DNA from: Pseudomonadota bacterium | GTDB lineage: Bacteria > Pseudomonadota > Gammaproteobacteria > Steroidobacterales > Woeseiaceae | DNA length: 64,000 bases | Direction of reading: 5' to 3' | Assembly (NCBI GenBank): GCA_027621915.1 | Contig: JAQCAD010000005.1 | Coordinates: 1 to 64,000, forward strand | Part shown: in pieces, positions 14,199 through 17,391 of the stretch | Position numbering within the stretch: the stretch's first letter is position 1 | How the letters are laid out: every line of letters begins with the position of its first letter | The notes under the pieces: model-generated | Told to the model about the DNA's origin: nothing | The model's input: only the letters and a program-made list of their open reading frames with translations | Databases searched by the model: none | Translations under genes and position numbers: made by a program

Positions 14199-14558
14199 AT
14201 GAAACCCGGAATTCTGTCGATTATTGCGCTCGCAACACTCGTCCCGATTGGAGGCTGCGCATCTCACCCGGATCCTATCATCGATATGAAAGGTGTTGAC
14301 AAGAGCACGATGCAAGCCGATTGGGGCGAATGCGAAGCCTATTCAGACCAGGTCGTATTAGGGAAAGGCGCCGCCAAGGGCGCTGCCGGTGGTGCAGTCG
14401 TAGGGGCGGCAACCGGTGCGATCAGTGGTGATGCGGAGGCCGGCGCCGGCTACGGTGCGATATGGGGCGCTACCAGATCAACGCTTGAGGGCGACCGCGA
14501 AAAACAGATGGTGTTCAAGCGGTGCATGAGAGGCCGCGGCTACAGGGTCCTGAACTAA
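14199..14558 (+). CDS. Glycine-zipper outer-membrane lipoprotein
   Basis: A 119-residue lipoprotein. The signal peptide ends in a lipobox-like IGGCA with cysteine near residue 20. It then has a Gly/Ala-rich zipper (GAAKGAAGGAVVGAATGAISG) of a kind that spans or associates with membranes, and a C-terminal RCMRGRGYRVLN motif common in small YMGG/glycine-zipper proteins. A Shine-Dalgarno CTGGAGA precedes the ATG. The frame is open further upstream, but that part overlaps the divergent CDF promoter region and is not protein-like. The role is unknown, presumably envelope maintenance. Confidence 0.83.
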   Translation: MKPGILSIIALATLVPIGGCASHPDPIIDMKGVDKSTMQADWGECEAYSDQVVLGKGAAKGAAGGAVVGAATGAISGDAEAGAGYGAIWGATRSTLEGDREKQMVFKRCMRGRGYRVLN

Positions 14559-14608: not shown

Positions 14609-14637
14609 TTGACCTTTGACGGTTCGTGGAATACTGT
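14609..14637 (+). promoter_or_regulatory. Sigma-70 promoter of the radical SAM gene
   Basis: A -35 hexamer TTGACC (14609-14614) is followed after 17 bases by TACTGT (14632-14637) as -10. The -10 is inside the LexA box, which is the usual arrangement for LexA repression. Reading from position only; no transcript data. Confidence 0.6.
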
Positions 14638-14651
14638 TTATTTATACAGTA
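14632..14651 (+). promoter_or_regulatory. LexA operator (SOS box)
   Basis: TACTGT-N8-ACAGTA, with an AT-rich spacer. Both half-sites match the gammaproteobacterial LexA consensus (CTGT-N8-ACAG with flanking TA) perfectly. It sits 13 bases before the ATG at 14664 and overlaps the -10, so bound LexA would block transcription and DNA damage would relieve it. Confidence 0.85.
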
Positions 14652-14663
14652 TTAGGCCACTCA

Positions 14664-15725
14664 ATGCTCGCCAAAGGACACAGGGGTCGCGGCGCGATTT
14701 CCCGCACATCAAGCCGATTCGACAAACGGTCGGTGGAACAGGACCCCGGCGAGACTGTTCCGGGGAACGCGCCCGACACCGTATTGCGCGAGATGGCGAC
14801 AAAGAAGATCATCAGTCACAACAGCTCGCCGGATATCCCTTTCGATCGATCTATCAATCCCTACCAGGGCTGCGAGCACGGTTGTGTCTATTGCTACGCC
14901 CGACCCAGCCACAGTTACCTGGATCTTTCGCCGGGGCTCGATTTTGAAACGCAGATTTTTTACAAACCGAACGCGGTTCAAAGCTTGCTTTGCGAGTGGG
15001 AAAAACCTGGCTACGCCTGTCAGCCGATCGTAATCGGGTCCAATACCGATCCGTATCAGCCAGCAGAAAAAAAACTTGAGATTACCCGGCGATTACTCGA
15101 GACGTTTCTACTTTACCGCCATCCGGTCAGCCTGATCAGCAAGGGTGGTTTGATGTCACGTGATCTCGATTTGCTGGCGGCACTCGCGAAGCGAAATTTG
15201 GTGTCTGTCGCCATTAGTATTCCGACGATGAATTCAGAACTGAAACGCATCCTGGAGCCACGCGTGCCAGCGGCGGAAGTTCGATTTCGATTGATGCGTG
15301 AGCTGGCAGACATCGGTGTTCCGGTAAGCTTGCTGCTCGCTCCGGTCATTCCTGCGTTGAACGACACGGAGATTGAAGCGATCGTTGAACGTTCCACTGC
15401 ATGCGGCATCAGCCACGCAAGTTGGATCTTGTTGCGCCTGCCGCACGAGCTTAAACAGATTTTTACCGAATGGCTGGAAGCGCGATTGCCGGATCGTGCG
15501 GCGCACGTGATGAGCCTTATGCGCCAGGCCAGCGGAGGTCGAGATTATGACAATCGATTCGGCGTTCGGCAGCGTGGCAAAGGGCCCTATGCCGATATGC
15601 TGGCAAATCGATTCAACGCGATTTGCCGCAAAATGAATCTCGAGCAGTCGCGCCCTGTTCAGCATCTGGATTGCAGCCAATTCCTCCGGCCGGGCCACAA
15701 GCAAATGGCTCTGGCACTCGACTGA
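14664..15725 (+). CDS. PA0069-family (SplB-like) radical SAM protein, SOS-regulated
   Basis: A 353-residue protein of the COG1533 group related to spore photoproduct lyase. The radical SAM cluster motif is GCEHGCVYCYAR (CxxxCxxC), preceded by the conserved INPYQGCEHGC context, and IGSNTDPYQP fits the SAM-binding barrel. The start at ATG 14664 follows directly on the LexA box; an upstream in-frame start lies inside the operator and was rejected. The function of the family is not established. A DNA-damage-induced radical enzyme suggests photoproduct repair or nucleic-acid processing, which is inference from the operator and the SplB relationship. Confidence 0.9.
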   Translation: MLAKGHRGRGAISRTSSRFDKRSVEQDPGETVPGNAPDTVLREMATKKIISHNSSPDIPFDRSINPYQGCEHGCVYCYARPSHSYLDLSPGLDFETQIFYKPNAVQSLLCEWEKPGYACQPIVIGSNTDPYQPAEKKLEITRRLLETFLLYRHPVSLISKGGLMSRDLDLLAALAKRNLVSVAISIPTMNSELKRILEPRVPAAEVRFRLMRELADIGVPVSLLLAPVIPALNDTEIEAIVERSTACGISHASWILLRLPHELKQIFTEWLEARLPDRAAHVMSLMRQASGGRDYDNRFGVRQRGKGPYADMLANRFNAICRKMNLEQSRPVQHLDCSQFLRPGHKQMALALD

Positions 15726-15822: not shown

Positions 15823-17391
15823 ATGAACTCCGTGAATTGTCATAAATCCGTGTTAATCCTGGTAACAATGGCCCTCTGCTCATTCGTCTACGCAGCGACA
15901 GCGCAAATCGCAGATGACGACGAGGAGTTGCGCCCTATCATCATCGGGCATGACGAGGACATGGACACGGAGGATAACGGCGAAGAAATAGACGAGCCCT
16001 CGTCGTATCGCCTTATTGAGAGCGACGAAGGCGACGACTGGGTCGAACCACCCCCTCAAACCGAAGTGGACGCGGATGAACTGAGCCGTCTGTTCGAACT
16101 GTACCGCGAGGCCATGGAAAACAAGGCGTACCTGGAAGCGGATACGCTTGCCAAGCAGGTCGTCGAGATGTCGATCAAGCTAAACGGGCTGGACAGCCAC
16201 GATTCAGCGCGAGCGATAACGAACCTCGGAATTGCACAACACAACAATCGCGACTACCAATCGGCAATGCTGAATTTCTCCGCTTCGATCGGGATTGTAG
16301 AAAGAATTGACGATCGACTAAGCTCAGCGCTTATCAATCCGCTGCAAGGGCTTGCGGCAACTCAGGCGGCAACCGGCCGGCCGGATCTTGCCAAGAAATC
16401 CTACCAGCGGGCCGTGCACGTCAGTCACGTCAACAGCGGCCCGCACAATCCGTTGCAGGTGGAAACACTGACGTCGATGGCCGAACTGAATATTTCGATG
16501 GGCGACCTCGAAGACGCCGCCGCTATTCAGGAAAACATTTTTGAACTCGAAGCACGAAACATCGACCCGCGCAGTCTCGATATCGTTCCAGCACTCCATC
16601 ACAAAGCGGAATGGCAACATCGACTGCAGCAATTTCAGGCTGAGCGTCTTACATGGCGACAGGTAATCAGTGTCATCGAAGGCCAGGTTGGGAAAGACAG
16701 CCTCGATCTCATTCCGCCGCTGACTAACCTTGGCCGGTCATATTTGTTCGTCAGCCCGGCTGAGTACGATTATCGACCGGAGGTCTCTAGCACGTCCGGC
16801 GAGACTTACCTTCGTCGCGCGAACAGGATTGCCGATACTAATCCTGACTCGAACTGGAAATTGGTCGAGGATACGTTGTTGGCGCTCGGAGACTACTACA
16901 TCCTGTCGGGTCGGCCGAACCGGGCAGAAAAAGTCTATGAAGACGCATGGACGATGTTGTCGGAGGGTAACGACGCAGAACGAAGACGAGCTCGATGGGA
17001 ACATCTGGAACAGGTTAATGTGTTGCAAGCTGTATTTCCTGACCGTTACTACAATAGTGAGCGCACGGATAATGGCCTGCCACCACCGGAAAATTTCGAA
17101 ACAGGCACTATTGTATTCGAGTTCAACGTGACACCCAGCGGCAGAGTATCCAACCTCGCGATCCTGGAAACCACACCGGAAGAACTGCAGGACTTCAGTG
17201 AATCCGTCGAACGAAATCTGCGGCGCCTGATATACCGACCAAGGCTGGTCGAGGGAAGACTGGTTTCGACCGAACGGGTGACATATACGCACGAGTTTTT
17301 CTACCGGCCCTCGGACCTTCCGTCAAATAAGACAACGCCGACGACCGGTGAAACCGGAGCACCGGCGCCGTCATCCAACGAAGACCGGTAG
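15823..17391 (+). CDS. Secreted TPR protein with a TonB-like C-terminal domain
   Basis: A 522-residue protein: signal peptide (about 1-27), a very acidic linker (residues 30-80, rich in D/E), then tetratricopeptide-type repeats from about 85 to 380 (for example LSRLFELYREAMENKAYLEADTLAKQVVEM and SARAITNLGIAQHNNRDYQSAMLNFSASI, described in part). The C-terminal 90 residues (TGTIVFEFNVTPSGRVSNLAILETTPEE, also in part) look like the TonB C-terminal fold used to contact periplasmic partners. A Thr/Pro tail ends the protein. It probably acts as a periplasmic scaffold. The adjacent M23 peptidase gene follows after 71 bp on the same strand and may be functionally linked. Confidence 0.75.
   Translation: MNSVNCHKSVLILVTMALCSFVYAATAQIADDDEELRPIIIGHDEDMDTEDNGEEIDEPSSYRLIESDEGDDWVEPPPQTEVDADELSRLFELYREAMENKAYLEADTLAKQVVEMSIKLNGLDSHDSARAITNLGIAQHNNRDYQSAMLNFSASIGIVERIDDRLSSALINPLQGLAATQAATGRPDLAKKSYQRAVHVSHVNSGPHNPLQVETLTSMAELNISMGDLEDAAAIQENIFELEARNIDPRSLDIVPALHHKAEWQHRLQQFQAERLTWRQVISVIEGQVGKDSLDLIPPLTNLGRSYLFVSPAEYDYRPEVSSTSGETYLRRANRIADTNPDSNWKLVEDTLLALGDYYILSGRPNRAEKVYEDAWTMLSEGNDAERRRARWEHLEQVNVLQAVFPDRYYNSERTDNGLPPPENFETGTIVFEFNVTPSGRVSNLAILETTPEELQDFSESVERNLRRLIYRPRLVEGRLVSTERVTYTHEFFYRPSDLPSNKTTPTTGETGAPAPSSNEDR

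Follow-up and report, generated by a model that had tools for sequence, protein, structure and literature searches.

A probable LexA operator at a PA0069-family radical SAM promoter in Woeseiaceae, and an ISCsp2-like clade of IS1595 elements that appears to target such operators

A LexA-type palindrome overlaps the promoter of a radical SAM gene in the window, i.e., the whole stretch of 64,000 nucleotides of a Woeseiaceae genome that was analysed (contig JAQCAD010000005.1), an arrangement by which SOS genes are recognised. We consider it likely that the palindrome is a LexA operator and that the product of the gene is an enzyme resembling spore photoproduct lyase (SPL) that acts on damaged DNA or nucleotides without the hydrogen return path of SPL. 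With hardly less confidence, we propose that an ISCsp2-like clade of IS1595 insertion sequences targets the LexA box: the elements would cut at CTG-N10-CAG, duplicate the 8-bp spacer and split SOS operators. SOS control of splB-like genes has already been published, and the Woeseiaceae case is not new in kind. An insertion sequence at the SOS palindrome is more surprising than the SOS control of a radical SAM gene. The features of the locus and the insertions are collected in Table 1.

Table 1. Features of the radical SAM locus (positions in the window) and ISCsp2-like insertions in other genomes and plasmids (positions in the respective loci)
Feature	Position	Strand	Remark
Glycine-zipper lipoprotein-like gene	14199..14558	+	Upstream neighbour; start codon set by homology to a 119-aa relative in L198
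-35 element TTGACC	14609..14614	+	Fixed 23-base distance to box start in relatives
Presumed -10 TACTGT	14632..14637	+	Left operator half-site; role suggested by the conserved 17-base spacing
Putative LexA (SOS) box TACTGT-TTATTTAT-ACAGTA	14632..14651	.	Perfect match, unique in genome, conserved
PA0069-family radical SAM gene, 353 aa	14664..15725	+	NF033668, 424.8 bits, cut-off 360
CEHGCVYC, codons 70-77	14871..14894	+	[4Fe-4S] CX3CX2C motif including Tyr76; three Cys and Tyr76 in 60/60
GSNTD, codons 125-129	15036..15050	+	Would face the place of SPL Cys141; Cys in 0/60
TPR/TonB-C gene	15823..17391	+	Downstream neighbour, 97 bases past the radical SAM stop codon
ISCsp2-like insertion	L198:458 to contig end, and L193		One insertion on two contigs of G298
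ISCsp2-like insertions with coordinates	L204:628-2516; L219:1939-3026		
Further ISCsp2-like insertions in CTG-N10-CAG	L194, L197, L199, L200, L201, L202, L207, L212, L224, L225, L230, L231, L237		

The sequence TACTGTTTATTTATACAGTA at 14632-14651 is a perfect TACTGT-N8-ACAGTA, as the first-pass annotation had recognised. It is the only such sequence in the window, none appeared in 100 shuffles (0/100), and the zero-mismatch form occurs once in the whole genome (3,564,879 bases, 3.56 Mb). The box ends 12 bases ahead of the radical SAM ATG at 14664, the distance having been given earlier as 13. A longer reading frame with a TTG start at 14616 would cross the box; the homologues align from the ATG at 14664. 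That annotation had also drawn a TTGACC-17-TACTGT promoter here. Its 17-base spacing holds and is conserved in relatives, but TACTGT agrees with TATAAT in three of six letters, which makes a poor -10, and the promoter is absent from the list of the promoter scanner. The core CTGT-N8-ACAG is by itself unremarkable and no commoner than chance, with 0.51 occurrences expected in the window and 30 places in the genome vs. 54 with the pattern reversed. At up to two mismatches to the box, the genome has 50 sites, fewer than the 173 of the reversed control, so the genome-wide list of weak sites means little. Since weak matches are not enriched, what counts is that the match is perfect, where it lies and that it is conserved. 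A large regulon built from weak boxes was rejected on the same counts.

Assignment of the box to a neighbouring gene was also considered and rejected: the upstream gene of the same direction ends before the promoter, and the next one is divergent and lies further up. No conserved partner or operon gene was found outside Woeseiaceae across the loci compared, and the box therefore goes with the radical SAM gene and not with a neighbour. In nearly all Woeseiaceae loci the TPR/TonB-C gene comes after the radical SAM gene, in the same orientation. No terminator was found between the two, and the TPR/TonB-C gene might be co-induced via read-through.

The genome encodes one LexA (246 bits). The sequence TACTGTTTATCCATACAGGT, that is, TACTGT-TTATCCAT-ACAGGT, ends 8 bases ahead of the lexA ATG and is followed by lexA, imuA and imuB in this order; the same genome thus holds a LexA with a similar motif at its own gene, as SOS control presupposes. 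ImuA scores 209.5 bits, whereas no NCBIfam model matched the ImuB-like protein, the name of which rests on position and on a reading of the protein. When 20 stretches around candidate sites were viewed, only two turned out to be convincing, the one at lexA and the one at a UvrD/Rep-type helicase gene on another contig (C34, L083:1-1986), which begins directly at the LexA-like box TACTGTATAAAAACCCAGTT. The 400 bases upstream of recA in this genome contain no box better than three mismatches.

A search of named genomes yielded 80 homologous loci, and the Woeseiaceae-like set numbers 54, made up of the window and the 53 loci that have an upstream region. The box is found with at most two mismatches in 51 of the 54 upstream regions; 35 of the 51 also have, exactly 23 bases ahead of the box, a hexamer that differs from TTGACA in one letter. 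For the reversed control motif, no site in the 80 loci had fewer than three mismatches. Relatives with the conserved box share 58-76% protein identity. Locus L012, which lacks its 5' end, was excluded from the upstream counts, save the raw listing, and L017, the own box of which is without its left half, is counted among the 51 through a separate site further upstream. In this locus (L017:250-350), unrelated DNA replaces the left half-box exactly at the spacer border, and the near-identical L022 is intact; about 50 bases ahead of the radical SAM gene there is a second LexA-like site. Among the 26 non-Woeseiaceae loci, the gamma-type box (up to two mismatches) is present in nine, GTTC-N7-GTTC in seven and neither in ten. 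GTTC-N7-GTTC, which we take to be the alphaproteobacterial LexA motif, stands in the alphaproteobacterial homologues in place of the gamma-type box. On a tree of 108 sequences (without L005, L012 and L051), the box label needs 10 changes.

A census of the class was based on an even draw of 276 genomes, 93 of which carry the family above the cut-off; upstream DNA was available for 91 after exclusion of the partial genes in G074 and G056. A site with at most two mismatches occurs in 11 of 91 (0.65 expected from shuffles). A credible box is present in 17 of 91, i.e., the 18 sites with up to three mismatches minus L104 (three mismatches, no CTG-N10-CAG), and 74 upstream regions are without a recognisable box. 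The box is seen in 17 of the 53 genomes in which LexA matches strongly and in none of the other 38, at a cut of 1e-55 that was set after the data were seen; the other 36 strong-LexA genomes have a family homologue without a recognisable box. Predicted LexA control is therefore near-fixed in Woeseiaceae, patchy elsewhere and a minority trait across the class. The check that had been proposed, a scan for LexA boxes before homologues, thus favours the idea within Woeseiaceae and finds little class-wide generality. The earlier placement of the gene in the SOS regulon is well supported by the genome's own LexA and box, by the conserved box and -35 element, and by the motif switch in alphaproteobacteria. 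Judged from these sequence patterns, the box is very probably an SOS box.

The following sequence of events may be envisaged. LexA bound to the 20-bp palindrome would block RNA polymerase. RecA filaments on single-stranded DNA would cause LexA self-cleavage, and the radical SAM gene would be switched on along with lexA-imuA-imuB. The enzyme, using a [4Fe-4S] cluster and S-adenosylmethionine in an SPL-like fold, would carry out radical chemistry, most likely on damaged DNA or nucleotides. Without the cysteine-to-tyrosine hydrogen return of the lyase, it would probably deal with another lesion or take another route.

It is also conceivable that the palindrome is a LexA operator, yet the gene serves the mutagenic ImuA-ImuB-DnaE2 system, e.g., by processing damaged bases before the polymerase reaches them, and not lesion reversal. 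ImuA is present in 53 of 93 genomes with the family vs. 38 of 183 without (Fisher's p 3e-9, shared ancestry ignored), and in 16 of the 17 box-bearing genomes. Among the strong-LexA genomes, however, the box accompanies the gene in 16 of 48 with ImuA vs. one of five without (p 1.0). The box being independent of ImuA there, the link may only mark lineages that keep a classical SOS response. Since an operon link was also seen at none of the loci compared, we regard a role in the ImuA-ImuB-DnaE2 system as unlikely, although deserving of some weight, and prefer a damage-directed enzyme under LexA control.

The 353-aa protein contains a Radical_SAM domain and matches NF033668 (PA0069 family) with 424.8 bits against a cut-off of 360, over profile positions 1-344 of 348, which shows that the family label given at first was right. 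The related Rv2578c family radical SAM protein model (NF038135) gives 206.6 bits, under its 430-bit cut-off. In a comparison of the AlphaFold2 model (built from 60 sequences; mean pLDDT 80.5) with solved structures, six SPL entries came out on top with Z 19.7-20.1, rmsd 3.0-3.4 Å and 257-264 residues aligned, at about 12% identity in the structural alignment; the next-best fold was NifB with Z 15.6. A sequence profile run against solved structures found SkfB and not SPL, and the profile comparison with SPL is weak and was not trusted for the position of the cysteine. In alignment A1, made from 60 of 81 available sequences, Tyr76, the counterpart of Tyr97 of Bacillus subtilis SPL, is invariant (60/60), and at the counterpart of Tyr99, 45 of the 60 sequences have Tyr and 15 have Phe. 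The cysteines beyond the cluster motif all vary among these 60 sequences, the best four positions reaching 39, 37, 31 and 31 of 60, a result that needs no alignment of the family to SPL. The genome (completeness 95%) has no match to the photolyase domain PF03441, which leaves room for a non-photolyase enzyme of UV lesions.

Could the protein be a true spore photoproduct lyase, reversing 5-thyminyl-5,6-dihydrothymine directly, with SOS only controlling its expression? Among solved folds SPL is clearly the nearest, and CX3CXYC with Tyr76 is found in 60/60 sequences. Such a lyase, however, needs a hydrogen donor. According to the accessible portions of the SPL papers, this role falls in B. subtilis to Cys141, the fourth conserved cysteine, and the radical path includes Tyr99 and Tyr97; in the C. 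acetobutylicum enzyme, Cys74 takes the place of Cys141. The family shares the CX3CX2C motif and the overall fold but offers no fourth conserved cysteine, the best candidate outside the cluster being present in 39 of 60 sequences, and it has Phe for the Tyr99 counterpart in a quarter of the sequences (15/60). Lyase activity proper therefore appears improbable: the PA0069-family enzyme is, on the predicted model, lyase-like in fold and probably not a spore photoproduct lyase. The kinship with SPL that had been suggested stands at the level of the fold (Z about 20) and does not extend to the cysteine hydrogen donor of the lyase. The name SplB calls for caution with this gene, and with the cysteine missing the enzyme should not be filed as a spore photoproduct lyase. 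Finally, that the palindrome is a chance or structural repeat that LexA does not read is very improbable: weak matches are indeed common and not enriched in the genome, but this match is perfect, sits at a fixed promoter spacing, is kept across relatives as far apart as given above and gives way to another motif in alphaproteobacteria.

The insertion sequences came to light at loci L005, L016 and L032, where the left half-box is gone and the break coincides exactly with the edge of the N8 spacer. L005 and L016 have a common end, GTGGAGCTAA-N-TGGATACCCCTT. In a search for this end through 107 family genomes and viral contigs, every copy with a readable flank was followed by 8 bases and then by ACAGTA or a sequence close to it. 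The transposase of the element belongs to the IS1595 family (PF12762, NF033547) and is about 62% identical to that of the plasmid element ISCsp2, which itself lies in a Diaphorobacter plasmid (NZ_CP080763) as TACTGT-ACAAATGC-[IS]-ACAAATGC-ACAGTA. The box of the radical SAM gene is hit in three Woeseiaceae genomes (L193/L005, L194/L016 and L212). In another gammaproteobacterium (L231) the box of lexA itself is split, CACTGT-ATTTTTAT-[IS]-ATTTTTAT-ACAGTT, and lexA starts within 30 bases of the element. The insertion in L224, on an Achromobacter plasmid, adjoins a gene for an SOS-response-associated peptidase. At least five insertions (L197, L199, L200, L201 and L207) lie near genes without a known SOS role, as identified by reading the translations, which suggests that it is the palindrome that the element reads, whatever the gene does; its best target would therefore be a perfect SOS box, of which this genome has one.

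The genome under study shows neither an IS end nor a transposase match, and the elements come from relatives and are absent from the window. Searches of viral contigs with the transposase, of E. coli genomes with ISCsp2, and of phages, which gave distant matches only, added no further target sites. The IS1595 copy of G344, 1889 bases long, has a second gene (257 aa) between its ends (L204:700-1473). In L032:5005-5925 an IS1-type transposase gene abuts the right half-box of the radical SAM gene (AGTACC, then TTATCCAT-ACAGTA); no left end was found in this locus, and it was left out of the insertion count.

Seven copies are resolved, meaning that both ends were found with equal duplications. L220-L223 show the same junction as L219 and were not recounted; L224 has both ends with unequal spacers and enters only the count of 13 insertions; and the right end of the G344 copy reads CCTC, not CCCC, its junction having been read directly. 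All 14 junctions of the seven copies have CTG or CAG in register, and in all seven the exact 8-bp duplication corresponds to the spacer within a CTG-N10-CAG palindrome. Distant IS1595 relatives (11 copies, at most about 52% identical) show the pattern at 0 of 22 junctions. With one-end copies included, the first-listed junction has at least four of the six letters of ACAGTA in 13 of 13 insertions (chance 0.038 each); over all junctions this is so in 17 of 18, and CAG is in place in 18 of 18. A later class-wide search revealed three more copies of the ISCsp2-like clade, inserted in the same way and not among the 13, L231 being one of them. One distant relative (L213:1408-2429) lies in GACGTT-TCCGCGGA-AACGTC, the 8-bp duplication being the centre. 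Some distant IS1595 relatives seem to choose palindromes of other sequence, so targeting of this kind may be wider in the family.

In its boldest form, the proposal is that the transposase reads the palindrome of LexA or is guided by LexA, and that the element can uncouple single genes, or the regulator, from the SOS response. Should the result hold, a mobile element lands specifically in SOS operators, and there is a simple way to lose or rewire the SOS control of single genes, even of lexA. No report on IS1595 together with LexA was among the literature matches listed, and no target preference of IS1595 beyond 8-bp duplications was found in the literature searched. The box, for its part, would firmly tie the enzyme family to the response to DNA damage in Woeseiaceae, gammaproteobacteria known chiefly through metagenomes.

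P. aeruginosa PA0069, the namesake of the NF033668 family, reportedly belongs to the LexA regulon of that species, as the first-pass annotation noted; no statement that PA0069 is a Pseudomonas LexA target was found in the literature searched. A review puts the P. aeruginosa LexA regulon at about 15 genes, and PA0069 is unnamed among those given in its accessible part (PMC13114513). With SPL (PDB 4FHC-4FHG, 4K9R and 4RH0) the enzyme shares the overall fold, the CX3CX2C motif and the Tyr97 counterpart; unlike SPL, it has no invariant hydrogen-donor cysteine, a Tyr99 counterpart that is either Tyr or Phe, and an identity to SPL of only about 12%. A Streptomyces LexA table, in the extract available, includes a radical SAM protein (PMC9380542), and SplB-like photolyases were tied to SOS gene neighbourhoods in 2013, according to the available text of that study (PMC3765255). 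In Bacteroidetes, splB (COG1533) was placed in the SOS network in 2021, as stated in the portion at hand (PMC8565304). That case is alike in having a radical SAM gene in a LexA-controlled network, and differs in its LexA proteins and motifs (CTAA-N5-TTAG and GGA-N5-TCC), the comparison being made at the level of COG1533. A 2012 analysis predicted that splB is controlled by LexA in alpha- and betaproteobacteria and, in the sections available, did not observe it in its gammaproteobacteria (PMC3323433). As there, an SplB-like gene stands under a LexA motif and is kept although the motif varies by group; unlike there, the trait appears near-fixed here in a gammaproteobacterial family.
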